From assembly GCA_021775575.1 (NCBI GenBank), contig JAJFHO010000200.1, forward strand, positions 1 through 33,521: DNA of 33,521 nt. The letters are read 5' to 3'. Shown here piece after piece: positions 7,453 through 27,954 of this stretch. The notes below the pieces were generated by a model. That model had not been told where the DNA came from. It made no database searches and saw only the letters and a program-made list of their open reading frames with translations. A program made the position numbers and the translations under genes. Source of the DNA: Hyphomicrobiales bacterium (GTDB lineage Bacteria; Pseudomonadota; Alphaproteobacteria; Rhizobiales; Methyloligellaceae). The first letter of the stretch is position 1. Each line of letters opens with the position of its first letter.

Positions 7453-7654
7453 GACGCTCCAGCCCCGTTTGTGTGAGCAGGCTTTTGCTACTCTTGCCTA
7501 AGCTCCGACCTAAACATGGCGTGTCAGTTTTGGGTCAAAGGCTTACCACCAGAGGACAATCGCCGGACATTGTGCTTGCGGCCCCCAAGTCGCCGTCAGA
7601 CCGGGAGCAGCTGGGAATGACGCTCTTATTTTTGCGAATAGATCGAGATCCCCT

Positions 7655-8710: not shown

Positions 8711-8730
8711 GGTCCGGAACCTGTCGCTAC

Positions 8731-10833: not shown

Positions 10834-10953
10834 CCGCTTTTTGAAATTTGCTTTTGTTTGGCGAAACTGGAGTATGGTCGCGCCGGTCGGGGATGTCTAG
10901 CATCGCACGCGCGGCGTTCTGCCAGGATATAGTCAGGTATTTTCGGGGGACCA

Positions 10954-11988: not shown

Positions 11989-12006
11989 CGCGAGCAGGGG
12001 CTGATC

Positions 12007-13230
<1,224 letters not shown>

Positions 13231-13972: not shown

Positions 13973-14677
13973 ATGCCGGTAACGCTGGCGGACGTCAACG
14001 AAGCGCTGCAAGCGGCAGGGCTGACTCCGCGCGGCGCTTTCAATCCCCGACCGGAAGATGGCGTTCCTGAACCGGCCGCCGGCCGGCCGGCAATGACGCT
14101 GGTCCTGACCGGCAACGCGGGGCCGGCCATGTGGGCGGCGTTCAGCGCCGCGCGTGACCCGGCGGTCGAGTTGCTGGATGACTGGTCGCGTGATGTGCTG
14201 GAGCCGCTGGCGCGATCCTTCGGGGCGCTTGCCCTGTTTCCTTTTCAAAAACCGCATCTGCCGTTTCAGCGTTGGGCGCAAAAGGCGGAGGCCTGTCACG
14301 CCTCGCCGCTGGGCATGTTTATCCATCCCGACCACGGGCTCTGGCATGGCTACCGGGGCGCGCTCGCCCTGGCGGAACGCCTGGCGCTGCCGCCCGCAGA
14401 CAGCCGCCCCCGGCCCTGCGACGAGTGTCCGGACCGGCCCTGTCTGAACACCTGTCCGGTCGGCGCATTCCGCGCCGGGGGCGATGGCGCCAGCTATGAC
14501 GTGCCGGCCTGCGCGCGGCATCTCGACAGCCCGGCCGGCGCTGACTGCATGGCACTGGGCTGCCGGGCGCGGCGCGCCTGCCCCGAAGGCCGGACCGCCC
14601 GTTACCAGCCGGAGCAGGCCGGATTCCACATGCGGGCGTTTTTGAAATCGCGCCGTGCCGACGGCAGTTTGGACTGA
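13973..14677 (+). CDS. 4Fe-4S cluster protein (QueG-like C-terminal half)
   Basis: A 234-residue protein with a cysteine-free N-terminal domain (first ~120 residues) and a cysteine-rich C-terminal ferredoxin-like part. The first cysteine set is CDECPDRPCLNTCPVGAF, and a second is ACARHLD...CMALGCRARRACP, enough for two 4Fe-4S clusters. The pattern resembles the ferredoxin tail of epoxyqueuosine reductase, but the cobalamin-binding QueG core is not evident. The ATG at 13973 has GGGGA upstream; a further in-frame ATG at 13940 lacks a clear site. It lies just before the corrinoid methyl-transfer operon, separated by a terminator-like hairpin, so a redox role there is possible but not shown. Confidence 0.7.
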   Translation: MPVTLADVNEALQAAGLTPRGAFNPRPEDGVPEPAAGRPAMTLVLTGNAGPAMWAAFSAARDPAVELLDDWSRDVLEPLARSFGALALFPFQKPHLPFQRWAQKAEACHASPLGMFIHPDHGLWHGYRGALALAERLALPPADSRPRPCDECPDRPCLNTCPVGAFRAGGDGASYDVPACARHLDSPAGADCMALGCRARRACPEGRTARYQPEQAGFHMRAFLKSRRADGSLD

Positions 14678-14710
14678 CCCGCCGCAGGCTGCGCCGGCTT
14701 CTATCGCGCA

Positions 14711-14755
14711 GAGACAAATCGCCACACGGGAAAGGGTGGCTCTTTGTCTCTCTTG
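14711..14755 (+). terminator. Hairpin terminator after the 4Fe-4S gene
   Basis: GAGACAAA (14711-14718) pairs with TTTGTCTC (14743-14750), and inside it GCCAC (14721-14725) pairs with GTGGC (14736-14740). A T-rich stretch follows. It sits 34 bases after the stop of the 4Fe-4S gene and separates it from the corrinoid operon. Confidence 0.6.
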
Positions 14756-14757
14756 TG

Positions 14758-14780
14758 TTAATATATTGCTGACATATCAG
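14758..14780. promoter_or_regulatory. AT-rich operator-like site A, upstream of the corrinoid operon
   Basis: The block TAATATATTGCTGACA matches 26115-26130 upstream of the dioxygenase at 15 of 16 positions. The full 23 bases (to ATATCAG) also share 16 of 23 with the site at 20741. The left and right 9-mers are imperfect inverted repeats (6 of 9). It lies about 106 bases before the corrinoid gene ATG. A TTGACC at 14801 downstream could be a -35 box, in which case this site lies upstream of the promoter. Confidence 0.5.
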
Positions 14781-14886
14781 TGTGAGAGCCGCTGCGCCTC
14801 TTGACCTCGGGCAACATGTACATATGGCGTCGGTGGCAAAACGGGTCTTGTCAGGATTCCGTGGCGGAGTGGAAAGGGAGACGGAG

Positions 14887-15531
14887 ATGTCCATTCAGGA
14901 AATTTACGATGCGGTGCTGGAATATGAAGAAGAAGACGTCGCCGAACTGGTCCAGGCGGAGGTCGATGCCGGCACCGATATCGAAAAAATCCTCAATGAG
15001 GGCCTGATCAGCGCGCTCGACGTGGTTGGCGAGAAATTCAGCGCCGGCACATTATTCGTGCCGGAAATGCTGATGGCCGCCGAGGCGGTTCAAGCCGGCT
15101 TGGAGATCGTCCGTCCGTTGCTCGTCGACAAGGGCGCCAAGGCGATCGGTACAGTGGTGCTGGGAACGGTCAAGGGGGATTTGCACGATATCGGCAAGAA
15201 CCTCGTCGGCATGATGTTCGAGGGTGCGGGTTTCAAGCTGATCGATCTGGGCACCGATGTGGATCCGGAAGAGTTCATCTCCGCGGCCCAGGAAAACGAC
15301 GCCGACCTTATCCTGCTTTCCGGCCTGCTGACGACCTCCATGCCGGAGATGGAAAAAGCTGTCGCCGCTATCCGCAAGGCGAATGAAAACCGCAATTTAA
15401 ACGTCAAGACCATGGTGGGCGGCCCGCCTGTCAATGCCGAATTCGCCGCGAAAATCGGCGCTGACGGCTACAGCATCGATGCCCCGACGGCTGTCGACGA
15501 TGCGCGCGCCTTTATGGCCGCCGGCATTTGA
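14887..15531 (+). CDS. Corrinoid (B12-binding) methyl-carrier protein
   Basis: A 214-residue carrier of the MtaC/MtbC/MttC/MtvC type. It shuttles a methyl group on the cobalt of a bound corrinoid between two methyltransferases. Residues 1-85 form the helical cap domain, followed by the Rossmann B12 domain with GDLHDIGKNL (Asp98, His100 as the lower cobalt ligand, Gly103), SGLL (Ser145) and VGGPPV (177-182). All B12-binding motifs are intact. The ATG at 14887 is chosen because the family N-terminus begins with MSIQEIYDAV and GGAG precedes it; a GTG at 14782 is in frame but adds unrelated residues. First gene of a five-gene plus-strand operon. I see no B12-box in the leader. Confidence 0.95.
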   Translation: MSIQEIYDAVLEYEEEDVAELVQAEVDAGTDIEKILNEGLISALDVVGEKFSAGTLFVPEMLMAAEAVQAGLEIVRPLLVDKGAKAIGTVVLGTVKGDLHDIGKNLVGMMFEGAGFKLIDLGTDVDPEEFISAAQENDADLILLSGLLTTSMPEMEKAVAAIRKANENRNLNVKTMVGGPPVNAEFAAKIGADGYSIDAPTAVDDARAFMAAGI

Positions 15532-15560
15532 ACAGTGGACACCAACCAAGGGACGGGACA

Positions 15561-16715
15561 ATGACCTGGACACATCGCGAACGCATTTTGGCGGCCCTGA
15601 ATCACGAGGAACCGGACCGTGTGCCGATCGATTTCGGTGGCGCCGAGTTCACGACGATCACGCTGGCCGGGTACGAGAAGCTGAAAAAATATATGGGCGT
15701 CGATGCCCCCACCGAGGTGATGTCGATCATTCACACCTGCGCCCACCCGGCCGAGGAAATTCTCAACCGGTTCGACGTCGACACCCGCAACGTCCAGCCG
15801 AGCGCTTATGAGGGTGGCGTCGATCACTGGATTGACGACAATACCTATATCGACACTTTCAATGTTCTGTGGAAGCGCACCGAAAAGGCCGTGGATCAGC
15901 ACTTCCTGCACCAGGATGGCCCCTTCCACGGCGGCAAGCTGACGGTCGAACAGGTCGAGGAATATGAGTGGCCGGACGGCAAGAATCCGGGCCTGGTCAA
16001 AGGCGTCCGGGAACGGGTCGAACAGATCAAGGCCAACGGCGACCATGCGGTTTGTCTCTACATACCGGGCGGCGTGATTCACCGCGGCTACGCCATGCGC
16101 GGCTTTGAGTCCTATCTCAAGGACCTCTATAAACGACCCGAGGCCTTGCAGCGGATGATGGACAAGCTCTGTGACTTCTGGTGCGACAATGCGGAATCGA
16201 TGATCGAGGCGGCTGGGCCAGAAAATGTCGACATTATCTATTTCGGCGAGGATCTGGGGACCCAGGACAGCTGCATGTTCGATCCGGACACCATCTACAA
16301 GGATTATTTAAAGCCGCGCCATCGCCGCATGGTCGAGCTGGTCAAGGGGCTGACCAACAACAAGGCCAAGGTCTGCTACCATTGCTGCGGCTCGGCCTAT
16401 CAGTTTATCCCGCATCTGCTGGATATCGGCGTCGATGCGCTGAACCCTGTCCAGGTCACCGCCAAGAATATGGAACCCGAGCGCCTGAAGGAAGCCTTCG
16501 GCGACCGGCTGACCTTCTGGGGCGGCATAAATACCCAGCAAACATTGCCCTTCGGCACGCCCGAAGAAGTTGTGACCGAGACCAAGCGGATCATCGATAT
16601 CCTGGGCAAGGGCGGCGGCTACATTCTCAACTCCGTGCACAACATCCAGGCCGAGGTGCCGCCGGAAAACATCGTCGCCATGTTCGAAACCGGCGTTGCT
16701 CACCGGTATCATTGA
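15561..16715 (+). CDS. URO-D family corrinoid methyltransferase
   Basis: A 384-residue TIM-barrel protein of the uroporphyrinogen decarboxylase superfamily, methyltransferase branch (MtaA/MtbA/MtvB relatives). It starts with THRERILAALNHEEPDRVPIDF, typical of this branch rather than of heme biosynthesis. The likely zinc site is YHCCGSAY (His274, Cys276). The usual distal cysteine region reads SVHNIQAEVPPENI, with Ser/His instead of Cys. The only candidate for substrate:corrinoid methyl transfer in the operon, so it probably demethylates the substrate. An ATG at 15528 overlaps the preceding stop, but the family start fits 15561, after GGGAC. Relatives act on methoxylated aromatics, methanol and methylamines; the substrate here is not readable. 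Confidence 0.88.
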   Translation: MTWTHRERILAALNHEEPDRVPIDFGGAEFTTITLAGYEKLKKYMGVDAPTEVMSIIHTCAHPAEEILNRFDVDTRNVQPSAYEGGVDHWIDDNTYIDTFNVLWKRTEKAVDQHFLHQDGPFHGGKLTVEQVEEYEWPDGKNPGLVKGVRERVEQIKANGDHAVCLYIPGGVIHRGYAMRGFESYLKDLYKRPEALQRMMDKLCDFWCDNAESMIEAAGPENVDIIYFGEDLGTQDSCMFDPDTIYKDYLKPRHRRMVELVKGLTNNKAKVCYHCCGSAYQFIPHLLDIGVDALNPVQVTAKNMEPERLKEAFGDRLTFWGGINTQQTLPFGTPEEVVTETKRIIDILGKGGGYILNSVHNIQAEVPPENIVAMFETGVAHRYH

Positions 16716-16717
16716 AA

Positions 16718-17320
16718 ATGATGGACAGCGCGGCCGGCAACCCCTCGACCCTGGTCATCTGTTGCGGCGCGATCGCCAACGAGATTGTCACCATCATCCG
16801 CGCCAACGGATGGGACCATATGAAGGTCGAATGCCTGCCGGCCAAGCTGCATAACCAGCCCGACGCCCTGCCAGAAGGCGTACGCGCCAAGATTCGCTCG
16901 GGCCGGGCGCGCGGCGAGGAAGTGATCGTGCTTTATAGCGATTGCGGCACCGGCGGCGCCATGGCCAGGGTGCTGGAAGAGGAGGGCGTTGAGAATATCG
17001 GCGGCTCGCATTGCTACGAGGTGTTCACCGGCTCGGAACCGTTCAAGGCGCTGATGGAAGACGAGCCGGGCAGTTTCTTCGTCACCGACTTTTTGGCGCG
17101 GCATTTCGAAAAGCTGGTTTTCAATGGCCTGGGGCTGGACCGTTTCCCGAAGCTCCGCGACGTCTATTTCGGCAAGTACCGCCGAATGGTCTATCTGGTG
17201 CAGCGCGAGAATGCGGAGAATCTGGCGCGCGCGGAAGCAGCCGCCGACAGCATCGGACTTGATCTGGAGGTGCGCCATACCGGTTATGGCGGCTTCCAGA
17301 AATTCCTGGAAACCAAGTAA
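16718..17320 (+). CDS. DUF1638 domain protein
   Basis: About 200 residues (the ATG at 16718 or the next codon) of the DUF1638 family. Motifs visible are ICCGAIANEI near the N-terminus, LPAKLHNQPDALPEGVR, YSDCGTGGAM and HCYEVFTG, with conserved cysteines and histidines that suggest a metal or cofactor site. The family is repeatedly found beside corrinoid methyltransferases, but I know of no firmly established activity. The gene follows the URO-D methyltransferase after two bases, with no clear ribosome site, so it is probably translationally coupled. A role in corrinoid loading, methyl transfer or cobalt redox is inference. Confidence 0.85.
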   Translation: MMDSAAGNPSTLVICCGAIANEIVTIIRANGWDHMKVECLPAKLHNQPDALPEGVRAKIRSGRARGEEVIVLYSDCGTGGAMARVLEEEGVENIGGSHCYEVFTGSEPFKALMEDEPGSFFVTDFLARHFEKLVFNGLGLDRFPKLRDVYFGKYRRMVYLVQRENAENLARAEAAADSIGLDLEVRHTGYGGFQKFLETK

Positions 17321-17389
17321 CCCGGTGGGCCCGGCCACGGAAATCGTCCGCCGAGCGCACCGCCAATCGCAGGAGCTTAACGCAGCGTC

Positions 17390-18253
17390 ATGACCGAGAC
17401 CGTCTTGAGTTCACCAGCCAAGGAAGTGGTAATCGGATTCGACCGGCCCTTTGTCGTCATCGGCGAGCGGATCAACCCTACCGGGCGCAAGAAGCTGGCC
17501 GCCGAAATTGCCGCAGGCAATTATTCGACCGTCGAGCGCGATGCCGCCGATCAGGTGGCGGCCGGCGCTCATGTGCTCGACGTCAACGCCGGCGTGCCCA
17601 CCGCGGATGAGGCCAAAATGATGACCGAGATGGTGCAACGGGTGCAGCGGCTCGTCGATGTACCGCTATGCATCGATTCCGCCATGGTGCCGGCGCTGGA
17701 AGCCGGCCTCGCCGCCTATGACGGCAAGGCGCTGATAAACTCGGTCACCGGCGAACAGGAAAGCCTGGAAAGCGTGCTGCCGCTGGCCAAAAAATACGGT
17801 GCCGCCGTGGTCGCCATCTGCAACGACGAGAGCGGTATTTCCGAAGACCCCGCCGTGCGGTTCGCGGTTGCGCGGAAGATCAAGCAGCGCGCCCTGGATC
17901 ATGGCCTGCCGGCCGCCGACGTGGTTGTCGATCCGCTGGTCATGCCGGTGGGCGCGGTGGGCAACGCCGGGCGTTCGGTGCTTTCGCTGGTGCGCAGGGT
18001 GCGCGAGGAACTGGAACTCAACACGATTTGCGGCGCATCCAATGTCAGCTTCGGCCTGCCGGACCGGCAGGGTCTCAATGCGGCCTTTCTGGCCATGTTG
18101 ATCGGCGCCGGGCTGACCTCGGCCATCGTCAACCCGCTGCATGCGCGGGTGATGACGGGGATCACCGGGGCGGAGGTGCTGGCCGGTCTCGACAACAGGT
18201 GCAAGAGATGGATGAAACGGTGCCGCGCCCAGCAACAGACACGGGCGGCGTAG
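17390..18253 (+). CDS. Methyltetrahydrofolate:corrinoid methyltransferase (pterin-binding)
   Basis: A 287-residue pterin-binding TIM barrel of the AcsE/MtvA type, related to dihydropteroate synthase and the folate domain of MetH. Motifs in order are IGERINPTGRKK, HVLDVNAG, PLCIDSA, LINSVTGE, VVDPLVMPVG and CGASNVSFGLPDRQ. In the cycle it would move the methyl group from methyl-Co(III) to tetrahydrofolate, giving 5-methyl-THF. The closest GGAG lies about 15 bases before the ATG, which is longer than usual. The C-terminus (RCKRWMKRCRAQQQTRAA) is basic and overlaps the next gene by 46 bases. A dihydropteroate synthase role is unlikely in this context. Confidence 0.92.
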   Translation: MTETVLSSPAKEVVIGFDRPFVVIGERINPTGRKKLAAEIAAGNYSTVERDAADQVAAGAHVLDVNAGVPTADEAKMMTEMVQRVQRLVDVPLCIDSAMVPALEAGLAAYDGKALINSVTGEQESLESVLPLAKKYGAAVVAICNDESGISEDPAVRFAVARKIKQRALDHGLPAADVVVDPLVMPVGAVGNAGRSVLSLVRRVREELELNTICGASNVSFGLPDRQGLNAAFLAMLIGAGLTSAIVNPLHARVMTGITGAEVLAGLDNRCKRWMKRCRAQQQTRAA

Positions 18254-20262
18254 GCCAGGACGTTCTCGCGGTTTTCCTGCCGTCGGGCCGGCGCGGCCGG
18301 TTTCCGGTCGGCACCAAGGTGCTGGCGGCGGCCCGGAAGCTTGGCGTCGATATCGATTCCATCTGTGCCGGCCGCGGTATTTGCGGCCGCTGCCAGGTTT
18401 CCGTGAGCAGCGGCGAATTCCCCAAATTCGGCATCCACTCGCACCCGGAGCATCTGAGCCCCCGGGGCGCGCTGGAGGATCGCTATGTGAAACAGCGCCC
18501 GCTCGCCGAGGGACGCCGCCTGTCCTGCTCGGCGCAGCTGACGGGCGACGCGGTGATCGACGTGCCGCCGGAAAGCCAGTTGCACAAACAGATCGTGCGC
18601 AAACAGGCGGAATCGCGGAGTGTCGAAATAGACCGTGTCGTGCGCCTGCATTATCTGGAAATGACCGCCCCCAGCCTGAGCGACCAGCGCAGCGACGTGG
18701 CGCGCGTGAAGGCCGCCCTTGTCGCGGAATGGGGGCTGGACGACATCGCTTTCGATCCGCGCCTGCTGGCCGAGCTGCCGGGGCTGCTGCGCGAGAGTGG
18801 CTGGAAGTTGACCGTGGCGGTGCGCAACGAACGGGAGATCATCGCATTGTGGCCGGGCTTCCATGACCGCGCTTTCGGGCTCGCCGTCGATATTGGCACA
18901 ACGACCATTGCCGCTCATTTGAACGATCTCGAAACAGGCGCGGTGGTTGCCGCCGCGGGCATCATGAATCCGCAAATCCGTTTCGGCGAAGACCTCATCA
19001 GCCGGCTGTCATTCATCCAGCAGAACCCGGACGCCCGCAGCGAGCTGACCGCCACGGTGCGCCGGGCCGTCGACGGCCTGATCCGCGAAACCGCCATCGA
19101 GGCCGGCGCCGAGCTGACCGATATCATCGATATGACGGTTGTCGGCAACCCGATCATGCACCACATTTTCCTCGGCATCGATCCCGCGCAACTGGGCTGC
19201 GCGCCGTTTCCCCTGGTTGTCGACGATGCCGTAACGGCGTGCGCCGGCGAGCTGCAATTGCGGAGCGTCAATCCGGCGACAGGCGTTTATCTTCTGCCCT
19301 GCGTCGCCGGCCATGTCGGCGCCGATACCGCGGCCATGATGCTGGCCGAGGCGCCGCACCGGAGCAGGGAGATGACCCTGCTTGTCGATGTCGGCACCAA
19401 TGCCGAGATCGTGCTCGGCAATAAGGATCGTCTGCTGGCCTGTTCAAGTCCCACTGGCCCGGCCTTCGAAGGGGCGCAGATCAGTTGCGGGCAGCGCGCC
19501 GCACTCGGCGCCATCGAGAGAGTGCGCATCGACCCTGAAACCCTGGCGCCCCGGTTCCAGGTGATCGGCAGCGCCTTATGGTCGAACGATCCCGGTTTCG
19601 CCGACGCCACGGCGCAATTCGGCGTTACCGGCATTTGCGGGTCGGGCATCATCGAGGCCGTGGCGGAGATGTTCATCGCTGGCCTGGTCACGCATACGGG
19701 TCTGATCGACGGCAAGCGCTTTCCCGGCTGTGAATGGCTCGAACCCGATGAGGAAGTATATTCCTACCGGTTGCAGGAGGGTCCGCCAAAGGTCCTGATC
19801 ACCCAGACCGACGTCCGCGCCATCCAACTGGCCAAGGCGGCGCTCTATGCAGGCGCCCGGCTGTTGATGGACATGCTCGGCGTGGAGACGCCCGAGCGTA
19901 TCGTTCTGGCCGGCGCCTTCGGTTCCTACATAGACCCGAAACACGCCATGATCCTCGGCATGATTCCCGATTGTCCGATCGACCATGTCCGTGCTGCCGG
20001 TAATGCCGCGGGCACCGGCGCGCGCATCGCGCTGTTGAACCGCGCGGCGCGCGGCGAGATCGAGGCGTTGGTGCGGCGCGTCGAAAAGGTGGAGACGGCG
20101 GCCGATCCGGGTTTCCAGAAATCTTTCGTCGCCGCCATGGCGCTGCCGCATGCGAGGCATCGCTTTGCGCATGTGGAGACGCTGGTTACGCTGCCGCCAA
20201 GGCGCGGGAAGAAGCCGAAAACCGGCAAGCGCGCCGTCCGGGACTTGGGAGAGGGCGGCTGA
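18208..20262 (+). CDS. Corrinoid protein reductive activator (RACo-like, 2Fe-2S + ASKHA domain)
   Basis: A 684-residue ATP-dependent activator that re-reduces inactive Co(II) corrinoid to Co(I). The N-terminal plant-type 2Fe-2S domain has Cys53, Cys59, Cys62 and Cys107 (CAGRGICGRC). After a linker domain the ASKHA ATPase part begins at VDIGTTTIAAHL (227 on), with later motifs VDVGTNAEIVLG, GTSGPAFEGA-like SPTGPAFEGAQI and LAGAFGSYID. The ATG at 18208 overlaps the preceding methyltransferase gene, as is usual in tight operons. It lacks the C-terminal ferredoxin of archaeal RamA. Presence of an activator shows that the corrinoid cycle is meant to run with frequent oxidation, as expected in an aerobe. 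Confidence 0.92.
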   Translation: MDETVPRPATDTGGVGQDVLAVFLPSGRRGRFPVGTKVLAAARKLGVDIDSICAGRGICGRCQVSVSSGEFPKFGIHSHPEHLSPRGALEDRYVKQRPLAEGRRLSCSAQLTGDAVIDVPPESQLHKQIVRKQAESRSVEIDRVVRLHYLEMTAPSLSDQRSDVARVKAALVAEWGLDDIAFDPRLLAELPGLLRESGWKLTVAVRNEREIIALWPGFHDRAFGLAVDIGTTTIAAHLNDLETGAVVAAAGIMNPQIRFGEDLISRLSFIQQNPDARSELTATVRRAVDGLIRETAIEAGAELTDIIDMTVVGNPIMHHIFLGIDPAQLGCAPFPLVVDDAVTACAGELQLRSVNPATGVYLLPCVAGHVGADTAAMMLAEAPHRSREMTLLVDVGTNAEIVLGNKDRLLACSSPTGPAFEGAQISCGQRAALGAIERVRIDPETLAPRFQVIGSALWSNDPGFADATAQFGVTGICGSGIIEAVAEMFIAGLVTHTGLIDGKRFPGCEWLEPDEEVYSYRLQEGPPKVLITQTDVRAIQLAKAALYAGARLLMDMLGVETPERIVLAGAFGSYIDPKHAMILGMIPDCPIDHVRAAGNAAGTGARIALLNRAARGEIEALVRRVEKVETAADPGFQKSFVAAMALPHARHRFAHVETLVTLPPRRGKKPKTGKRAVRDLGEGG

Positions 20263-20277
20263 TCTTTCCAAAGGCGG

Positions 20278-20649
20278 CTATATCAAGAACCCGAGAACTC
20301 CACCGGCAACTGCACCCGCTGCAACGCTCAGCAACAGCAGTGATGCGCGGCCATCGACGAATTCGTCGGTGAAAAGCTGCACCAGCAATGGGGCGGCAAG
20401 AGACATTGCGCCCGCGCCGATCACGGCCGCATACCAGGGTATCGTGAAAAATGCGAAATAGATGCCGATACCGGCGCTCGCAACCGCCAGAACAACTGTG
20501 CTCCAGAGAAACAGTGCCCCGGACGGGCCCTTCAGCGCGTGGCCGCGATATTCTCGCGGGAAGTGACCGGCGACAACCACGGCATACATGCAAATGGCGA
20601 GCACCAGCGCCATGAAGAGCGGAAATTCTGGCCAAGGGGGCAGCGGCAT
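20278..20649 (-). CDS. Small four-helix membrane protein, unknown
   Basis: A 123-residue hydrophobic protein with four predicted membrane segments (about 11-29, 45-66, 70-90 and 102-122). I recognise no family. It is convergent with the activator gene (15 bases apart) and divergent from the PanB-like gene, so it is not part of either operon. Reading frame and codon use look normal. Function unknown. Confidence 0.6.
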   Translation of the reverse strand: MPLPPWPEFPLFMALVLAICMYAVVVAGHFPREYRGHALKGPSGALFLWSTVVLAVASAGIGIYFAFFTIPWYAAVIGAGAMSLAAPLLVQLFTDEFVDGRASLLLLSVAAGAVAGGVLGFLI

Positions 20650-20717
20650 CGTGTTTTTACGGCTGTGGTGGGCAGTGGAAAGAGAGGGCTTGGCTCCGGC
20701 GCCGGACGTGGACCGGC

Positions 20718-20763
20718 TTGACCGGACAGCGTGTGCATTTATAACATACTAAGCATATATCAG
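20718..20763 (+). promoter_or_regulatory. Promoter with operator-like site B, before the PanB-like gene
   Basis: TTGACC (20718-20723) and TATAAC (20740-20745) are 16 bases apart, a good sigma-70 promoter. The -10 box overlaps the left half of an AT-rich site (20741-20763, ATAACATAC...ATATATCAG) that matches the site at 22578 at 15 of 23 positions and the one at 14758 at 16 of 23. A repressor bound here would block the start of transcription. Confidence 0.55.
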
Positions 20764-20785
20764 AAATACATTAGGGCGCAAACCA

Positions 20786-21676
20786 ATGGCCAAGGACCCC
20801 GGGACAGCCGCGGCAACCAAGCCCAAAAAACGTACCATTACGGAAATCCGGCAATCAAAGAAGACCGGGGAAAAGATGGTCTATATGTCGGTGCCGGATT
20901 ACACCTCGGCCCAATGGGCGGAGATGGCCGGCGTCGACGTCGCGGTCGTTGGCGACAGTCTGGCCATGATTGCGCACGGCCATCCCAACACCATTCCCGC
21001 GACGATGGACATGATGGTCATGCATGCCCAGGCGATCCGCCGCGGCGCGCCCAATACTTTCGTGCTGGGGTGCATGCCCTATCAGAGCTATAACAGCGTC
21101 GACCGTGCTCTGGTGAACGCGACCCGCTTCATGCAGGACGCCGGCAGCGACGCCGTCAAGCCGCAGGGCGGGAAAAGTCAGGCGCATATTCTCAAAGCGC
21201 TCGTTGACGCCGGCATCCCGACCGCCTCCCATATCGGACTGACGCCTCACACGGTCGCAATGTTCGGCGGGTTCAAGATTCAGGGCACGACCGCCGAGGC
21301 GGCCATGAAAATCCTGGAGGACGCCTTTGCGATCGAAGATGCCGGCTGCTTCATGCTGGAATTCGAGGCGGTGCCGGGACGGATTGCGCAATTGATCTCC
21401 GAACAGCTCGACATACCGACCATTGGGATCGGCGCCGGCGTCGGCACCGACGGGCAGATATTGCTGTGCCATGATTTGCTCGGCGTCTTCACCGATTTCA
21501 AACCGAAATTTACCAAACGCTTTGCCAGCCTCACCGACGTCGCGGTGACGGGCATCCGTGACTATGTGAAGCAGGTAAAGGAAGGCACTTTCCCGGACGA
21601 TGACCATACATATACCGTCCAGGAGGCTGAATTCGATAAATTTGCCAGACTATTGGAAAACAGAAAGCAGATTTAG
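20786..21676 (+). CDS. PanB-like protein (ketopantoate hydroxymethyltransferase family, altered metal site)
   Basis: A 296-residue TIM barrel clearly of the PanB family, which adds a hydroxymethyl group from methylene-THF to 2-oxoisovalerate. Family motifs are VVGDSLAM (Asp57), RRGAPN, HIGLTPHTVAMFGGFK, LEFEAVP (Glu194, catalytic base equivalent) and IGIGAGVGTDGQILLCHD. Against E. coli PanB, however, the Mg ligand Asp84 is Cys96 (VLGCMPY) and Glu114 is Gln127 (VKPQGGK), while Lys125 is kept. Two of three metal ligands are therefore replaced, so pantothenate synthesis is doubtful. The gene is followed by the GntR gene after 18 bases. A different acceptor or reaction linked to the corrinoid/folate operon is possible. 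It could also be a degenerating paralog, though the frame is intact. Confidence 0.85.
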   Translation: MAKDPGTAAATKPKKRTITEIRQSKKTGEKMVYMSVPDYTSAQWAEMAGVDVAVVGDSLAMIAHGHPNTIPATMDMMVMHAQAIRRGAPNTFVLGCMPYQSYNSVDRALVNATRFMQDAGSDAVKPQGGKSQAHILKALVDAGIPTASHIGLTPHTVAMFGGFKIQGTTAEAAMKILEDAFAIEDAGCFMLEFEAVPGRIAQLISEQLDIPTIGIGAGVGTDGQILLCHDLLGVFTDFKPKFTKRFASLTDVAVTGIRDYVKQVKEGTFPDDDHTYTVQEAEFDKFARLLENRKQI

Positions 21677-21694
21677 TGTAGTTGAAATTCTGCG

Positions 21695-22417
21695 GTGAAT
21701 GAAGTACCGGGACTCATGGCGGACCCAGAGACAAAGAACAACCGGCAGCGGGGCGTGACCGCTGAAAGCCCGGAAACACTGACCGACCGGGCTTACCGCA
21801 AGCTGGAGGAAATGATCGTAACCCTGCAATTGATGCCGGGAGACGTGCTTTCCGAACAGGCGTTATCAAGAGAACTCGGTATCGGCCGCACGCCTATTCG
21901 CGAGGCGCTTCAGCGTCTGGCGAGAGAGGGCCTTGTCGTGATCCTGCCGCGTAAGGGTATCCTGGTCTCTGAAACCAATCCCCGCAAACAGTTGCTCGTT
22001 CTGGAGGCGCGGCGTGAAATCGAAAGACTTCTGTCACGGGCCGGCGCTTTGCGGCGGACGGAGGAACAGGCGGGCCGGTTGCTGGCCATTGCCGATGGCA
22101 TGGAAAGGGCCGCGGCGGAGAATGACGACATTGCGTTCATGCGGCTTGACCAGGAACTGAACGGTCTGGTCGCGGAGTCCGCACATAATGAATATGCAAG
22201 CCGGGCGATGGGCCTCCTGCACGGACTGTCCCGCCGCTTCTGGTATGTGCATTACAGGCAGACCGCCGACATGCCGCTTTGCGCCCGGCTCCACGCGGTT
22301 CAGGCGCGCGCGATCGCGCAAGGCAACCCGGAAGGGGCCGCCGAGGCCGTCGACCAGCTTGTCGACTATACCGAAACTTTTACACGCGAGACGCTCACAT
22401 CCGATCTGCCGCGCTGA
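21695..22417 (+). CDS. GntR-family regulator, FCD domain
   Basis: A 240-residue regulator with an N-terminal winged helix (about 30-93; ELGIGRTPIREALQRLAREGLV is the recognition region) and an all-helical FCD ligand domain. The start is GTG, with an ATG 21 bases later as alternative. FCD domains usually bind a metal through Asp plus three His. Here Asp152 and His200 are present, but the His of DxxFH is Asn156 and the final His is absent, so metal-free ligand binding is likely. It is co-transcribed with the PanB-like gene, so it would regulate itself. It is the obvious candidate to bind the related sites at 14758, 20741, 22578 and 26114. Confidence 0.9.
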   Translation: MNEVPGLMADPETKNNRQRGVTAESPETLTDRAYRKLEEMIVTLQLMPGDVLSEQALSRELGIGRTPIREALQRLAREGLVVILPRKGILVSETNPRKQLLVLEARREIERLLSRAGALRRTEEQAGRLLAIADGMERAAAENDDIAFMRLDQELNGLVAESAHNEYASRAMGLLHGLSRRFWYVHYRQTADMPLCARLHAVQARAIAQGNPEGAAEAVDQLVDYTETFTRETLTSDLPR

Positions 22418-22551
22418 CGCGTGGCGTTAGCGTCGCTTGTTTCCCCTTAGGGCATTCCGGTTCATGCGGCCAGCCTTGGTCCCGGCCGCGTCCAGGCACA
22501 ATCAGCGTCACAATCTTCAATGTAGATTGGCCCCCGCGCGCTACGCCCCGC

Positions 22552-22618
22552 GCGGTTTACAAACCGCTGAAACATCATTAACATATGGCTAATATATCAA
22601 CGGCTCCGTTCAGCGGTT
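22552..22618 (+). promoter_or_regulatory. Promoter with nested dyads and site C, before the DUF6166 gene
   Basis: TTTACA (22556-22561) and TAACAT (22579-22584) are 17 apart. Site C (22578-22600, TTAACATAT...ATATATCAA) is a dyad with 7 of 9 matching half-sites centred near 22589. Perfect 10-bp arms AACCGCTGAA (22562-22571) and TTCAGCGGTT (22609-22618) flank it around nearly the same centre. GCGGTTTACAAACCGC (22552-22567) is another perfect dyad over the -35 box. Confidence 0.55.
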
Positions 22619-22631
22619 CAAGGGTTGGGTT

Positions 22632-22934
22632 TTGTCCAAGACATATAAAGGGGAGCGTACGATCGATGGGCTGAGAGTGGCCGTGAATGGCGAGCTGCTT
22701 GGCGAACACACGGAAGTCGAGAAGTTCACCGATTACGGATTCGAATGGTCCTATGAAGGCGAATCCCCGCAGCAGCTTGCCCTGGCAATTTTGGCCGATT
22801 TTACCGGAGACGATGAAGAAGCGGTTCGCTTGTCAGAGCCCTTTATGAGGTCGGTGATAGCAAATCTGGACAATGACTGGATTCTGACGGCCAAGGAGAT
22901 AAATGCGGCACTGAAGGAAATTCGCAAAGGGTGA
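22632..22934 (+). CDS. DUF6166 family small protein
   Basis: A 100-residue protein starting with TTG. The central segment FEWSYEGESPQQLALAILAD matches the DUF6166 signature (FEWGYxGxGPxQLALALL), a family of unknown function. It is acidic in the second half and has no signal peptide or membrane segment, so it is cytoplasmic. Its regulatory region is unusually elaborate for so small a gene, and it lies 93 bases before the TRAP transporter genes, with which it may be transcribed. A role in controlling or assisting transport is guesswork. Confidence 0.7.
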   Translation: MSKTYKGERTIDGLRVAVNGELLGEHTEVEKFTDYGFEWSYEGESPQQLALAILADFTGDDEEAVRLSEPFMRSVIANLDNDWILTAKEINAALKEIRKG

Positions 22935-23027
22935 GAATACGGGTGCGCGTCTCGCCAATATCCGGGGACAATCCGGGGATCAGAATAGAGCACCGCATAA
23001 TAAGTGAATGCCAATAGGGAGAGCAAA

Positions 23028-24086
23028 ATGAGGAAGAATTTGTGCTCACGCGCTGTGCTGGCAGCGTTTGTTATTGTCGCGGCGATGCTGACGGTTCGAC
23101 CGGGTGTCGCGGCTGAACATAATTGGAAATTGGCCGCCAGCTGGGGTGGTGGCCCGCTGATGGAGATCGGCGCCAAAGCCTTCGCCGCCCGCGTAAAGGA
23201 CCTTACCGACGGCCGTGTCGAAATCCAGGTATTCCCGTCGGGAACATTGTCGAAAGGTCTTGAGGTCCGCAGCGCTGTCGCCAAGGGTGTCGCGGAAGTC
23301 GGTCATACATGGATGGGCTATGACTGGGGCAAGGACAAGACCACCGTGCTTCTGGGCGGTTTTGCCGGGAGCATGGATACCGAGCGTATGCTGCACTGGA
23401 TTTATGAAGGTGGCGGGCTGGCGCTGTGGCGTCAGTTCAACGAGGAGAGATTCGGGATTGTTTCCTTCCCCTGTTTCGCCCGTACGGCCGAAGCCTTCCT
23501 GCATTCGCGCAAGCCGGTCAAATCGCTTGCCGACCTGAAGGGTCTCAAATTCCGCACCGCTGGCGCATGGCTGGCAATCTCCAAGGGTCTGGGCGCGGCG
23601 CCGGTCACCATGCCGGGCGGCGAGGTTTATGCCGCGCTAGAGCGTGGCGCTATCGACGCAACCGAATGGGGCACGCTCTATGAAAACAAGAGCACCGGAT
23701 TCCACAAGATCGCCAAATATGTGATCATTCCGGGCATTCACCAACCGACCGCGCCCTTCGAGGTCGTGATCAACAAGAAGGCCTGGGGGAAACTCTCCGA
23801 CCATGACAAGGCCCGTGTCGAACTGGCCGCCAAGCTCGTCACGGTTGAGAGCTGGATGAAAATTGGCGACGAGGATGCCAAGGCGCTTGCCTTCTACAAA
23901 AAGGAAGGCAATGAGATCATCGAGCTCGATGCCTCGGTGCAGAAACAGGCCAAACAGCTTGCTCTCGACTGGGCAAAAGAACAGGCCAAAACAAATGACT
24001 GGTTCAAGAAAATCCTTGAGCATCAACTCGCTTATGAGAAACTGTGGGCGAATGCAGCCAGCTACCGAAATGTGAAATATCAGTAG
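23028..24086 (+). CDS. TRAP transporter solute-binding protein (DctP family)
   Basis: A 352-residue periplasmic binding protein. The signal peptide MRKNLCSRAVLAAFVIVAAM is cleaved probably after GVAA. The mature part starts WKLAASWGGG and has the family core LKGLKFRTAGAWLA (its Arg normally binds the ligand carboxylate) and GGEVYAALERGAIDATEW, like the TakP-type group that binds 2-oxo or related monocarboxylic acids. The ATG at 23028 is preceded by GGGAGAG; an ATG at 23004 would put charged residues before the signal peptide. It is followed by a strong hairpin terminator, then DctQ and DctM. It likely imports an organic acid, possibly the substrate of the corrinoid operon. Confidence 0.92.
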   Translation: MRKNLCSRAVLAAFVIVAAMLTVRPGVAAEHNWKLAASWGGGPLMEIGAKAFAARVKDLTDGRVEIQVFPSGTLSKGLEVRSAVAKGVAEVGHTWMGYDWGKDKTTVLLGGFAGSMDTERMLHWIYEGGGLALWRQFNEERFGIVSFPCFARTAEAFLHSRKPVKSLADLKGLKFRTAGAWLAISKGLGAAPVTMPGGEVYAALERGAIDATEWGTLYENKSTGFHKIAKYVIIPGIHQPTAPFEVVINKKAWGKLSDHDKARVELAAKLVTVESWMKIGDEDAKALAFYKKEGNEIIELDASVQKQAKQLALDWAKEQAKTNDWFKKILEHQLAYEKLWANAASYRNVKYQ

Positions 24087-24096
24087 TTACTCTCTG

Positions 24097-24146
24097 CCGG
24101 CGGCCGGGAATCCTGGCAGGACTCCTGGCCGCCGGACCCAATTTTT
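24097..24146 (+). terminator. Hairpin terminator between dctP and dctQM
   Basis: CCGGCGGCC (24097-24105) pairs perfectly with GGCCGCCGG (24127-24135), with more pairing inside, followed by a T-run (24142-24146). Partial read-through would give more binding protein than permease, which suits TRAP stoichiometry. Confidence 0.75.
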
Positions 24147-24203
24147 CCAATGCCATGACAATCAGTGTATCGTTGATCGCTGCCGGGGGGGGCGCCGGGT
24201 TGA

Positions 24204-24737
24204 ATGCTGAGACTTGTGCGAGCAATTGAGAGAGTTTCCGAACTGAGCGGTTCGGTGATCGCCTGGGTCGTCTTCCCGCTGATCATTGCGACCTGCTTCG
24301 AAGTCTTCTCCCGCTATGTCCTGGACGCGCCGACAATCTGGGCCTATGAGGCAGGGTATATGACGATGGGCATTCATGCCCTGATCGGCTCCGCCTACAC
24401 GCTGCGGCATCAAGCCCATATTCGCATCGATGTGCTATATTCGCATTTCAGAGATCGCACCAAGGCGATTGTCGATATTGCCGGTTACCTGATTCTATTT
24501 TTCCCAGCCGTCATCTGGCTCAACATCGCACTGTGGGACTATTTGGCGGAGGCCTATCTTTCCGGCGAACAGTCCGGTCAATCGGCATGGAACCCGATAA
24601 TCTGGCCATTCCGCGCCGCATTTCTCATCGGCTATGCGCTTCTTCTGCTTCAGGGTATCTCCGAGCTTCTCAAGAATATTCTCTTTCTTTCGGGCCGGGT
24701 TGATGAATTGCCGAGCAGCAGCAGAGAGAAGTTCTGA
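24204..24737 (+). CDS. TRAP transporter small permease (DctQ family)
   Basis: A 177-residue protein with four membrane segments. It has the DctQ core RVSELSGSVIAWVVFPL at the N-terminus, FEVFSRYVLDAPTIWAYE near residue 33-50 and GSAYTLRHQAHIRIDVLY after the second helix, all typical of the family. DctQ joins DctM to form the sodium-driven membrane component that receives substrate from DctP. The stop overlaps the ATG of dctM by one base (24737), so the two are coupled. No unusual features. Confidence 0.92.
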   Translation: MLRLVRAIERVSELSGSVIAWVVFPLIIATCFEVFSRYVLDAPTIWAYEAGYMTMGIHALIGSAYTLRHQAHIRIDVLYSHFRDRTKAIVDIAGYLILFFPAVIWLNIALWDYLAEAYLSGEQSGQSAWNPIIWPFRAAFLIGYALLLLQGISELLKNILFLSGRVDELPSSSREKF

Positions 24738-26059
24738 TGGGAGAATATCTCGCTCTCGCAATGTTTCCGGTGTTGCTGATGGCCTTGTTCATGGGCTTTC
24801 CTGTCGCCTTTTCGATGATGGGCGTGGCGCTCTTTTTCGGCATTATCACGTTCGGCGAACCAGTCATTTTTCAGTTCGTCCAGAAAGTCGATGCCGTGGC
24901 GACGGCGTTCGAGCTTGCCGCCGTACCGCTTTTTATTTTCATGGGCGCGATGATGGAGCGCTCAGGGATGGCCGAGAAGCTGTTCGAAGCCATCCATCTG
25001 TGGACACGCCGGCTTCCCGGCGGTCTGGCGATCGGCACCATTGTCATGTGCGTCGTGTTTGCCGCTTCAAGCGGCGTCATCGGCGCAACGGAAACCGTTG
25101 TCGGTATGCTCGCCATTCCGGTGATGATGAAATATGCCTACGACAAGGGGCTTATCTCGGGCACCATTTGCGCCGGCGGATCGCTCGGCACCATCATTCC
25201 GCCCTCGGTGGTTGTTGTCGTGCTCGGCCCCGTTGCCGATGTCTCGGTGGGCACGCTTTTCGTGGGCATGATCTTCCCCGGACTTATCTTGGCCGGTCTT
25301 TACCTGGTTTACATCCTGGGGCGGTGCACCATCCAGCCAAAGGCCGGGCCCCGCCTGCCACCCAGCGATGACGAGCCCTCCTTATGGGAGAAGACCCGCA
25401 TTTCGATCATCGCCCTGTTGCCGCCGGTAGCGATGATCGTCTCTGTTCTCGGCTCCATAATGTTCGGTCTTGCCGCGCCTACGGAAGCCGCCGGATTGGG
25501 GGCGTTGGGTTCGATCCTCCTTGCCATTATCTACAGACAGTTTTCGCTCGGTGTTCTTCACGAGGCGGTCGTAAAAACTCTGCGCGTAACCTGCATGATT
25601 TTCCTGATCCTGCTCGGCGGGAATATGTTTGCCGGCGTGTTCATAGCGTCGGGCGGGGTGGTTCTCACCGAACGCCTTATCGCGGCGGCGCATCTCGGAC
25701 CGGCAATGACCCTGGTCGCATTCCTGACCGTCTGCTTTATCGCCGGCTTTTTTCTCGACTGGATCTCCGTTCTGCTCATCTTCATTCCGGTATTTGTTCC
25801 GATCGTGAAGACGATGGGATTCGATCCGGCATGGTTCTGTGTGCTGTTTCTGATCGTGATCCAGACCAGCTATCTGACCCCGCCGATGGCGCCGGCGATA
25901 TTCTATTTGCGCGGCATCAGTCCGCCTGAAATAACCCTGCGCCACATGTTTTCCGGTGTCGTGCCCTTCATCATTCTGCAGGTCATCTGCCTGGCTATCG
26001 TCGCGGTGTTTCCCAACCTGGTACTATGGTTGCCCGATCAGTTGCTCGGGTTCCGCTAG
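24737..26059 (+). CDS. TRAP transporter large permease (DctM family)
   Basis: A 440-residue protein with about 12 membrane segments. The DctM signatures are AVPLFIFMGAMMERSG, SSGVIGATETVVGMLAIPVM, GGSLGTIIPPS (the substrate/sodium loop) and FGLAAPTEAAGLGALGS in the second half. It forms the elevator-type transport domain of the TRAP system, using a sodium gradient for uptake. Length and motifs are complete. It ends the transporter operon; the next gene has its own TTGACA promoter at 26085. Confidence 0.95.
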   Translation: MGEYLALAMFPVLLMALFMGFPVAFSMMGVALFFGIITFGEPVIFQFVQKVDAVATAFELAAVPLFIFMGAMMERSGMAEKLFEAIHLWTRRLPGGLAIGTIVMCVVFAASSGVIGATETVVGMLAIPVMMKYAYDKGLISGTICAGGSLGTIIPPSVVVVVLGPVADVSVGTLFVGMIFPGLILAGLYLVYILGRCTIQPKAGPRLPPSDDEPSLWEKTRISIIALLPPVAMIVSVLGSIMFGLAAPTEAAGLGALGSILLAIIYRQFSLGVLHEAVVKTLRVTCMIFLILLGGNMFAGVFIASGGVVLTERLIAAAHLGPAMTLVAFLTVCFIAGFFLDWISVLLIFIPVFVPIVKTMGFDPAWFCVLFLIVIQTSYLTPPMAPAIFYLRGISPPEITLRHMFSGVVPFIILQVICLAIVAVFPNLVLWLPDQLLGFR

Positions 26060-26084
26060 CGCGGGGGACAATGCGCGGAACGGA

Positions 26085-26136
26085 TTGACAGAGGGCAATA
26101 CGCTGATGTATTTGTAATATATTACTGACACCTGAT
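26085..26136 (+). promoter_or_regulatory. Promoter with operator-like site D, before the dioxygenase gene
   Basis: A consensus TTGACA (26085-26090) is followed 18 bases later by TATTTG (26109-26114). Immediately downstream is GTAATATATTAC (26114-26125), a perfect 12-bp palindrome, within TAATATATTACTGACA, which matches the corrinoid upstream site at 15 of 16 positions. A repressor here would cover the transcription start. Confidence 0.55.
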
Positions 26137-26180
26137 TATCACTGGCCGTTTTGCGTGGCGCCATCTCGGAGCATGAAACT

Positions 26181-27083
26181 ATGACGCCTGAGGAAATCCT
26201 TTCGAACGAGCCGCGGGTTCTTACCAGGGAGCAGCGCGAGTCGTATTTCGAGGACGGTTATATCCTGCTCGAGAGAATCATTCCCGAAGACTGGATTGAG
26301 AAATTGCGCGCGGTGACCGAGGAAATGATCGACCGCAGCCGGAGCATTTCGGAGGCTGACGAGGTCTGGGACCTCGACAAGGGGCACACAGCGCAAGCGC
26401 CGCGTCTGCGGCGGTTGTCCAGCCCGAACGATCATCACCCGGTCTACTGGGACTTCGCTTCGAAATCGCTGCTGCCCGACATTATTGCCGATCTGGTTGG
26501 GCCCGATGTAAAATTTCATCACTCGAAGCTGAATTTCAAATGGTCGGGCGGCGGCGAGGAAGTGAAGTGGCACCAGGATATCAGCTTTTGGCCGCACACA
26601 AATTACAGCCCGTGCACCGCCGGCATCTATATGTATGACTGCGGACGGGAGCAGGGACCGCTGGCGGTTTACCCCGGCAGCCACGCGCATGAGCTCTACG
26701 ATCAGTTCAACGACAAAGACGAGTGGACGGGCTGCCTCAATGCAGAGGACTCGGCGAAAATTGACATGAACAAGGCCGTTTTTCTGGATGGTCCGGCAGG
26801 CTCGATGACCATTCACAATTGCCGCACGCTGCATTATTCGGCGGTCAACAATTCCGACCTTCCGCGGCCGCTTCTGCTCAATGTCTATGCGGCGGCGGAT
26901 GCCTTTCCTTATACGCACAATCCGCTGCCCTCGAAATATGATCAGGCGATCGTACGGGGCAAGCGGGCCCGCTGGGCGCATCACGATGCGCGCCCCTGCC
27001 TGGTGCCGCCGGACTGGTCGGGAGGGTATACGTCAATCTTCGCGCTCCAGCAGGAGGAAGACTGGACAACGGCCGCGCAATAA
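26181..27083 (+). CDS. Phytanoyl-CoA dioxygenase family protein
   Basis: A 300-residue non-heme iron, 2-oxoglutarate-dependent oxygenase. The iron triad is His131 and Asp133 (KWHQDISFW) with His218 (TLHYSAVNNS). Arg229 is placed to bind 2-oxoglutarate, and YPGSHAHELYD is the usual family turn. The ATG at 26181 follows CGGAG at fair spacing; an ATG at 26151 adds ten residues. Members hydroxylate CoA esters, compatible solutes, phosphonates or other small acids. The promoter shares an operator-like site with the corrinoid operon, so it probably acts on the same substrate or a product of it. The substrate is not readable. Confidence 0.88.
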   Translation: MTPEEILSNEPRVLTREQRESYFEDGYILLERIIPEDWIEKLRAVTEEMIDRSRSISEADEVWDLDKGHTAQAPRLRRLSSPNDHHPVYWDFASKSLLPDIIADLVGPDVKFHHSKLNFKWSGGGEEVKWHQDISFWPHTNYSPCTAGIYMYDCGREQGPLAVYPGSHAHELYDQFNDKDEWTGCLNAEDSAKIDMNKAVFLDGPAGSMTIHNCRTLHYSAVNNSDLPRPLLLNVYAAADAFPYTHNPLPSKYDQAIVRGKRARWAHHDARPCLVPPDWSGGYTSIFALQQEEDWTTAAQ

Positions 27084-27183
27084 CAGCAGCGAAAGGCCCC
27101 GCCCGAAACGACAGCCGTAAAGGCATGAAGGACAAAGGCGGGACCGGCGCTGGGGAGCCTCCAATCGCAATGGGAGAAAAGAG

Positions 27184-27954
27184 ATGATTACCGAGCGGCA
27201 GAGAGAATTCCGTGAAGTCTACAGGTCGCGGATCATGGGCTGGTATGACGGATACCTCCATGTCGCGATTATTTATGCGATGGGCGCGGCCGCCTTTTAT
27301 ATCTACCTGCAGCATATCGAGACTGTGCTGTGGTGGGAGTGGCTGGCGTTACCGGTAACATTCCTTTTCACCAATCTGTTCGAGTGGTGGATCCACAAAT
27401 ACATCATGCACCGCCCTATCAACATTAAGGGTCTGCGGGCGATTTATGAGCGCCATACGCTCAATCATCACCAGTTTTTCACGGACGAAGAGATGCGCTT
27501 CCGCGACCATACCGACTGGCGTGTAACGGTGTTCCCTCCCTACGCGCTCGTCGTGTTCATCCTCATGTCCATTCCCGCCGCCCTTGTGCTTGGATGGCTC
27601 GTCACGCCCAATGTCGGATGGTTGTTCATGTGCGCCACCTCGGGCATGTATCTCATTTACGAGTTCATGCATTTTTGCTGTCACGTCGACGAGAACTGGT
27701 TCGTGCGCAATGTTCCGCTCGTAAACACCATCCGCCGCCATCACACAGCACACCACAATGCGCGGTTGATGATGGAGGTGAATATGAATCTGAGCTTCCC
27801 GATTGCCGACTGGCTGTTCGGAACGTCGGATCTCGATCGCGGTCTGCTCGGGCACGTCTTCAACGGCTATGACGACACCCATCTCAAGTCCAATCTGCGC
27901 GGCCGGCCCAAACGGCCCGATCAGGCCGCGGCCGAACCGATGGGAAGTTACTGA
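27184..27954 (+). CDS. Membrane fatty acid hydroxylase/sterol desaturase family protein
   Basis: A 256-residue integral membrane di-iron oxygenase. Four histidine clusters are visible: HKYIMH (71-76), HTLNHH (91-96), HFCCH (163-167) and HHTAHH (186-191), between hydrophobic segments. The spacing fits the sterol desaturase/fatty acid hydroxylase superfamily. GGGAG lies just before the ATG. It follows the dioxygenase by 100 bases in the same direction with no terminator seen, so both oxygenases may be made together. It could modify a lipid rather than the imported substrate. Its relation to the corrinoid genes is only by position. Confidence 0.88.
   Translation: MITERQREFREVYRSRIMGWYDGYLHVAIIYAMGAAAFYIYLQHIETVLWWEWLALPVTFLFTNLFEWWIHKYIMHRPINIKGLRAIYERHTLNHHQFFTDEEMRFRDHTDWRVTVFPPYALVVFILMSIPAALVLGWLVTPNVGWLFMCATSGMYLIYEFMHFCCHVDENWFVRNVPLVNTIRRHHTAHHNARLMMEVNMNLSFPIADWLFGTSDLDRGLLGHVFNGYDDTHLKSNLRGRPKRPDQAAAEPMGSY

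Follow-up and report, generated by a model that had tools for sequence, protein, structure and literature searches.

This work describes two adjoining gene groups within a 33,521-nucleotide stretch of DNA from a Hyphomicrobiales bacterium (contig JAJFHO010000200.1, assembly GCA_021775575.1; the whole stretch is referred to here as the window): a corrinoid methyl-transfer operon and a gene cassette for an organic acid. The operon is a variant, with a URO-D-type methyltransferase, of a known aerobic corrinoid system, and in some genomes it is linked to an uncharacterized, more widespread organic-acid cassette. The region thus consists of two modules: the operon (module B, positions 13973 to 20262) and the cassette (module A, positions 20786 to 27954). 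Their co-occurrence is real in one lineage, where both are found together at four other loci from metagenome-assembled genomes (MAGs) (L043, L044, L045, and L046; five loci counting the window). Either module can also be found alone.

Layout of the two modules

All of the genes named in the original prediction, which was made from the sequence alone (a corrinoid operon, a PanB-like gene, a GntR/FCD regulator gene, a DUF6166 gene, a TRAP transporter, and two oxygenase genes), were recovered and confirmed by Pfam, every one on the plus strand. The first gene of module B lies just upstream of the start noted earlier (position 14758) and accompanies the corrinoid operon. The genes are as follows.

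Module B
13973..14677, plus strand: CblC/QueG-like protein with two probable 4Fe-4S sites (tentative fold match, eight invariant Cys; frame open from 13940)
14887..15531, plus strand: corrinoid carrier protein, MtgC/MtbC-like (PF02310, PF02607; DLHDIG, the DxHxxG motif)
15561..16715, plus strand: URO-D superfamily methyltransferase, candidate methyl-donor enzyme (MT-I) (PF01208)
16712..17320, plus strand: DUF1638 protein (PF07796, 90.5 bits against a cutoff of 27)
17390..18253, plus strand: pterin-binding methyltransferase (MT-II) (PF00809; PRK07535, 347.5 bits against a cutoff of 259)
18253..20262, plus strand: RACo/RamA-like reductive activator with an N-terminal 2Fe-2S domain (PF14574, PF17651, PF17650, PF00111)

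Module A
20786..21676, plus strand: PanB-like protein (PF02548; 279.8 bits against the NCBIfam PanB cutoff of 207.55)
21716..22417, plus strand: GntR/FCD regulator of the cassette (PF00392, PF07729)
22632..22934, plus strand: DUF6166 small protein (PF19663)
23028..24086, plus strand: TRAP solute receptor DctP, TakP/lactate-receptor-like (PF03480; RTAG and DATEW motifs)
24204..24737, plus strand: TRAP small permease DctQ (PF04290)
24737..26059, plus strand: TRAP large permease DctM (PF06808)
26181..27083, plus strand: PhyH-family Fe(II)/2-oxoglutarate oxygenase (PF05721; HxD...H, as HQD, and Arg kept)
27184..27954, plus strand: FA_hydroxylase-family membrane protein (PF04116; His boxes)

Intergenic gaps inside each gene group range from -1 to 214 bp; those from the carrier gene to the RACo gene are -1 to 69 bp, and 206 bp precede the carrier gene. 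Scans for promoters (5 promoter-like sites versus 5.4 expected) and terminators (18 terminator-like sites versus 14.3 expected) were uninformative. Positions 158 to 13230 of the window hold acyl-CoA catabolism genes (a thiamine pyrophosphate enzyme, two acyl-CoA dehydrogenases, an NDP-type acyl-CoA synthetase, an APH-family kinase, and an ECH-HCDH fusion), which were not seen next to the island at L043 to L046.

Linkage of the modules in other genomes

Relatives of the URO-D protein were collected by a named search, which returned 26 loci and, running on two short peptide patterns, misses relatives that lack them. At 21 of these loci (L043 to L063), identity is at least 55%. Nineteen of the 21 are MAGs labeled Alphaproteobacteria, Rhodospirillales, or Rhodospirillaceae, and the remaining two are labeled Acidiferrobacteraceae (L058) and Actinomycetes (L062); judging from isolate names, most are probably marine. 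The Actinomycetes-labeled MAG, which has URO-D (75%), carrier, and DUF1638 genes, is perhaps mis-binned. Neighborhood genes were called by tblastn with the window proteins; at GC-rich loci (at least L088, L089, L090, L093, and L099), open reading frame (ORF) calling gave antisense frames, and identities were taken from tblastn.

The original prediction turned on the co-occurrence of PanB-like, TRAP, and PhyH genes with the corrinoid operon, and in the four other MAGs they do co-occur, with the gene order rearranged. The carrier, URO-D, and DUF1638 genes are present at all five linked loci, as are the PanB-like, GntR, DUF6166, DctPQM, and PhyH genes (the PhyH gene of L043 being cut by the end of the stretch). 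Four of the five have the pterin gene and four the CblC-like gene, both of which are missing from L044. The RACo gene is found at three loci (the window, L043, and L046), and so is the FA_hydroxylase-like gene (the window, L044, and L045), with L043 and L046 ending near its place. A second URO-D paralog (~50%) and an MtaA-like URO-D gene are each present at three loci (L043, L045, and L046). The L046 copy of the MtaA-like protein falls short of the PRK06252 cutoff (241.3 against 244 bits), and a copy, also included in the URO-D tree, is encoded on contig C109 of the window's own genome. Three arrangements were seen: module B lies between the GntR and DUF6166 genes (L043 to L045), divergent from the PanB-like gene (L046), or upstream of that gene (the window). 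Since the linkage has been kept through rearrangement, it argues for a functional tie between the two modules, even though the URO-D proteins at these loci are closely related (83 to 93% identity). A chance neighborhood was set aside given the repeated linkage, although the linked MAGs are related, which makes the statistics weaker.

MetV and MetF genes are included at two of the linked loci (L043 and L046); at these two, and at L047, L048, and L049, the pair lies between the DUF1638 and pterin genes (as called by tblastn, with Pfam confirmation for the L046 pair). In the window's own genome, MetV and MetF are found on contig C215, beside another URO-D set. The position of these genes inside the operon fits oxidation of methyl-tetrahydrofolate (methyl-H4F).

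Partial linkage occurs at further loci. At L049, TRAP and GntR genes that group with those of the cassette in FastTree trees (branch supports not considered) come after the operon, in a genome with no match to the PanB-like protein; at L047, a GntR gene of the cassette group lies upstream of the operon; and at L056 and L059, a different type of TRAP transporter adjoins the URO-D gene. The window's own genome has 16 DctM-family matches in 4.06 Mb, several of which are pieces of a single gene, so that few genes would be expected to have a TRAP gene within 20 kb. At L112, the PanB-like gene adjoins a MetF and a MetV gene together with genes encoding a corrinoid protein (44%) and a distant URO-D protein (31%), and at L111 it adjoins a GntR gene, a CblC-like gene, and another PhyH gene. 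More distant PanB relatives (45 to 51%) have a PhyH neighbor in four of seven neighborhoods (L096, L098, L113, and L114; none in L095, L097, or L099), further copies in genomes G357 and G064 lying outside these seven. A corrinoid gene set is found ~3 kb from the distant PanB relative at L099, where no methyl-donor gene was found and three ORFs near the corrinoid genes have no Pfam match.

Distribution of the cassette

The PanB-like protein is present at an identity of at least 77% in 9 of 385 genomes of the class, the window's own included, and the eight others are without this URO-D protein at an E value of 1e-60. In the stretches fetched from those eight, the PanB-like gene is accompanied by the GntR gene in every case, by DctPQM and PhyH genes in all seven with enough contig (L088 to L094), and, among these seven, by the DUF6166 gene in five and the FA_hydroxylase-like gene in six. 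One such cassette (L094) belongs to a 1.3-Mb genome with a GC content of 29% in the stretch read, which appears to be SAR11-like. Seven of the 20 other genomes with the URO-D protein carry the PanB-like protein at this identity, versus 8 of 380 class genomes without it; the Fisher P value of 1.3e-6 for this contrast is overstated, as the genomes are related and the 20 were chosen by the URO-D search. DUF1638 is found in 75 of the 385 class genomes and in four of the eight genomes, other than the window's own, that have the PanB-like protein (P = 0.048). In a phylum-wide sample, only 2 of 398 genomes have the PanB-like protein: the window's own and one other (G028) of the same class. Among plasmids, 110 records match it at an E value of 1e-60 or better, 103 of them from Enterococcus, and a single record is more than 60% identical (82%): Methylobacterium nodulans pMNOD02. 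On this plasmid, genes for FA_hydroxylase-like, DUF6166, PanB-like, and GntR proteins have an MFS gene in their vicinity; neither a TRAP nor a PhyH gene was matched in the 28.9 kb read.

Proteins of the corrinoid operon

The model of the URO-D protein is of high confidence (pLDDT 93.4). Its first Foldseek match is MtaA, a methylcobalamin:CoM methyltransferase (PDB entry 4ay7; E value of 1e-12), and the VIA comparison ranks 4ay7 level with the true UroD proteins (Z 28.0 to 27.4). Residues H274, C276, and H360 are invariant among 32 sequences; the residues opposite them in 4ay7 are His, Cys, and Cys. H274 and C276 form the HxC metal motif, aligned with HICG of 4ay7. The third Cys of the MtaA type, near the C terminus, is replaced, as His360 faces its position in the alignment; in 4ay7 this Cys is presumably a metal ligand. 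The HxC site suggests that the protein may activate a thiol, thioether, or similar group. Zinc-independent methyltransferases of the UroD type also exist (PMC13222342). Two further contigs of the same genome, C215 (L036) and C92 (L037), carry URO-D and corrinoid gene sets, one with MetV/MetF and one with a RACo-like gene. URO-D paralogs without an adjoining corrinoid gene are found on C85 (L024; 64%) and C109 (L025; 54%); on C109, the MtaA-like URO-D gene lies next to the paralog, on the other strand.

The carrier protein scores below the cutoff of all 14 NCBIfam families that it matches. For DUF1638, a Phaeobacter homolog is required for methionine synthesis together with a RamA-like protein (PMC5764234).

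The protein encoded at 13973 to 14677 has no Pfam or NCBIfam family at an E value of 0.001. Eight Cys residues, in two groups, are invariant in nine sequences, and the groups are of the probable 4Fe-4S cluster-binding kind. A PDB profile search placed six MMACHC (CblC) entries on top, all weak (best E value of 0.051, over one stretch of ~50 residues), and QueG lower (E value of 0.35). The AlphaFold2 model has a pLDDT of only 73.7; with Foldseek, its sole match below 0.001 was MMACHC (E value of 6.4e-4), and in the VIA comparison this model gave Z 12.4 for MMACHC (root mean square deviation of 4.0, 189 residues aligned), Z 10.2 for QueG, and Z 8.7 and less for reductive dehalogenases, with TM-scores near 0.5 for the first two. 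The predicted fold may be that of CblC and QueG across most of the protein's length, but the protein matches neither family and carries the eight invariant Cys residues, which human CblC is not known to have. CblC-like genes lie beside URO-D or RACo genes at several loci. The protein is a candidate cobalamin-handling Fe-S partner for corrinoid reduction or processing, which may help RACo and DUF1638 to hold cobalt in the reduced state.

Proteins of the organic-acid cassette

The PanB-like protein matches ketopantoate hydroxymethyltransferase (PanB) over its whole length and above the NCBIfam cutoff. D84 and E114 are metal-site residues of PanB. In alignment with E. coli PanB, Cys and Gln replace D84 and E114, and the same two residues are found in all 12 other aligned sequences of at least 77% identity (L043 to L046 and L087 to L094); five more distant aligned relatives have Ser or Ala at the D84 position and Gln at the E114 position. 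A second, canonical PanB, with Asp and Glu retained, is encoded on contig C51 of the same genome. On account of the altered residues and the canonical copy, an ordinary PanB was rejected, and the PanB-like protein is probably not a pantothenate enzyme.

The original prediction also held that an organic acid is imported, and the TRAP receptor agrees with this in being nearest to the lactate receptor (2zzv, E value of 2.2e-39) and TakP (2hzk, 7.4e-39). Its Arg is common to both structures, and its DATEW motif is identical in 2hzk and is DAADF in 2zzv; we take the Arg and the Glu-Trp motif to be binding-site residues of TRAP receptors. The PhyH protein was aligned with EctD (3emr), and its nearest solved relatives include ectoine and leucine hydroxylases. 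From its proteins, module A suggests import of a 2-oxo or 2-hydroxy acid, its hydroxylation, and then carbon-carbon chemistry by the PanB-like protein.

Genome context

Five COX1-family matches make oxygen respiration likely in the source organism, as the original prediction of an aerobe supposed. The MTTB family (PF06253) has no matches in the genome, a control search in Methanosarcina acetivorans being positive. The contig may have been mis-binned: the MAG has a contamination of 4.45%, and this URO-D protein was found at an E value of 1e-60 in none of 396 other genomes sampled from the same order. Speaking against mis-binning are the GC content of the window, which agrees with that of other stretches of the genome, and the further URO-D genes on C85, C109, C215, and C92.

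Proposed pathway and alternatives

From the gene content, conserved residues, and repeated linkage, we infer directions of methyl transfer, a donor, and a coupling of the modules as follows. The URO-D enzyme would transfer a methyl group from the donor to Co(I) of the corrinoid carrier, and the pterin-binding protein would pass it from the carrier to H4F. RACo, DUF1638, and the CblC/QueG-like Fe-S protein would keep the cobalt in its reduced state while the cell respires oxygen, and MetV/MetF, encoded within the operon of several relatives and here on C215, would convert methyl-H4F to methylene-H4F. The TakP-like TRAP transporter would import a 2-oxo or 2-hydroxy acid, on which the O2-dependent PhyH oxygenase and the altered PanB-like protein would act under GntR control. 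Our preferred but tentative reading, to which we assign slightly less than an even chance, is that both modules feed H4F-bound one-carbon (C1) units, with the imported acid, or a product of it, serving as the methyl donor.

Several observations weigh against this reading. In the window, a spacing of 523 bp separates the RACo and PanB-like genes, and between the modules lies a small membrane ORF (20278-20649, minus strand) on the strand opposite to both, with no relatives found among the loci compared; this gap and ORF make separate transcription of the modules more likely than a single unit. (At L092, a membrane ORF of similar size adjoins the PanB-like gene.) No module B genes were found in the stretches from the seven cassette-bearing genomes or the 5.9-kb fragment from the eighth. 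The PanB-like protein was not matched in 13 of the 20 other URO-D genomes (MAGs, with completeness mostly not stated), nor, within the window's own URO-D clade of seven genomes, in G125 and the genome of L047. Genome G782 (L110) has the PanB-like gene with PhyH and no module B gene in the 20-kb stretch retrieved, and DUF1638 was unmatched in four of the nine genomes with the PanB-like protein at 77% or more (among them G064, 68% complete). The single island around a corrinoid cycle of the original prediction is too strong a description for a cassette that stands alone in seven genomes and a fragment and is unmatched by its PanB-like protein in most URO-D genomes. 

A substantial though doubtful alternative is that the modules are two separate neighboring catabolic units, module A degrading one acid and module B demethylating another compound, clustered through their common C1-H4F output or by joint transfer. 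That each module is found alone, that the gap and ORF part them in the window, and that the linkage may stem from one event, the URO-D proteins of the four linked MAGs being so similar (83 to 93%), all favor it. Three arrangements in five loci, however, mean at least two rearrangements with the linkage intact; L049 retains module B with cassette-type TRAP and GntR genes, a different TRAP type adjoins the URO-D gene at L056 and L059, and the PanB-like gene is again next to corrinoid or MetF/MetV genes at L111 and L112.

Other alternatives concern module B itself. It could run in reverse as a methionine synthase variant, with the corrinoid carrying the methyl group of methyl-H4F to homocysteine or another thiol: the HxC site is as in MtaA, the fold has kinship with MetE (Z 16.5 for 3rpd, others 15.7 and less), and the same core proteins make methionine in Phaeobacter (PMC5764234). 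We consider this quite improbable, as the operon is without a homocysteine domain; PF02574 is found only on contigs C232 and C64, and a split MetH is encoded in pieces away from the operon (its PF02574 piece on C232, and its remaining pieces, recognized by visual inspection, on C232 and C95), so that the operon need not serve methionine. We give equally little credence to demethylation of a halomethane or methoxy compound in the manner of CmuA/CmuB or MtvB/CdmB, with module A unrelated. TRAP transporters as neighbors point to an acid substrate, which speaks against it. The URO-D fold and the kind of partners are common to MtaA, CmuA, MtvB/OdmB, CdmB, and the window protein, and the UroD superfamily includes CmuA, MtvB, OdmB, and CdmB (PMC13222342). 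Membership in MtaA/CmuA was nevertheless dismissed, with scores of 67 and 69 bits far below the respective cutoffs of 235.4 and 244, and the window protein is not fused to a corrinoid domain, unlike CmuA, which serves as both MT-I and carrier (PMC13222342).

A more far-reaching scheme can also be drawn, which we regard as speculative and rather unlikely. PhyH and the PanB-like protein would form an oxidative C1-excision pair, in which PhyH hydroxylates a methyl group of the imported 2-oxo acid and the PanB-like protein, as a retro-hydroxymethyltransferase, gives methylene-H4F; in one Rhodospirillales lineage, the same acid would also bear a heteroatom-bound methyl group, transferred to H4F through a new branch of URO-D and corrinoid proteins that a CblC-like protein assists. 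If this were true, the cassette by itself would constitute a catabolic pathway not yet described, with a range across alphaproteobacteria that takes in the 1.3-Mb, 29% GC SAR11-like genome.

Relation to known systems and implications

A close published counterpart is the glycine betaine demethylase MtgBCD of Ruegeria pomeroyi, likewise an aerobic alphaproteobacterium with H4F-linked C1 oxidation, which shares a separate carrier, pterin methyltransferase, RamA, and DUF1638 (PMC12478193). It differs in its methyl-donor enzyme, of the MTTB family (PF06253), whereas the window has a URO-D protein, the CblC/QueG-like protein, and the TRAP/PanB-like/PhyH neighborhood. The original prediction placed such corrinoid sets mostly in anaerobes; this view is dated, as a published aerobic system demethylates through a corrinoid with these core proteins (PMC12478193). 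Phaeobacter inhibens likewise has separate genes for the corrinoid, pterin, RamA-like, and DUF1638 proteins of its split methionine synthase, but with a homocysteine-domain partner that this operon does not have (PMC5764234). The original prediction knew of no described system with this gene combination, and among open-licence papers we likewise found none that describes the combination or its unusual members.

Cobalamin-dependent demethylation has been proposed as a main route for the methyl groups of marine N-osmolytes, with enzymes of the MTTB type (PMC12478193). If a URO-D-type branch operates in this setting too, more compounds would be known to undergo demethylation. The PanB-like/PhyH/TRAP cassette, present in one very small AT-rich genome and in large ones, is a putative catabolic unit with a clear gene list. 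By its example, some proteins annotated as "PanB" are probably misnamed; the copy on the Methylobacterium nodulans plasmid, grouped here by identity and not by its residues, is annotated panB. Taken side by side, the two gene sets point to a possible new route for methyl carbon into the folate pool.

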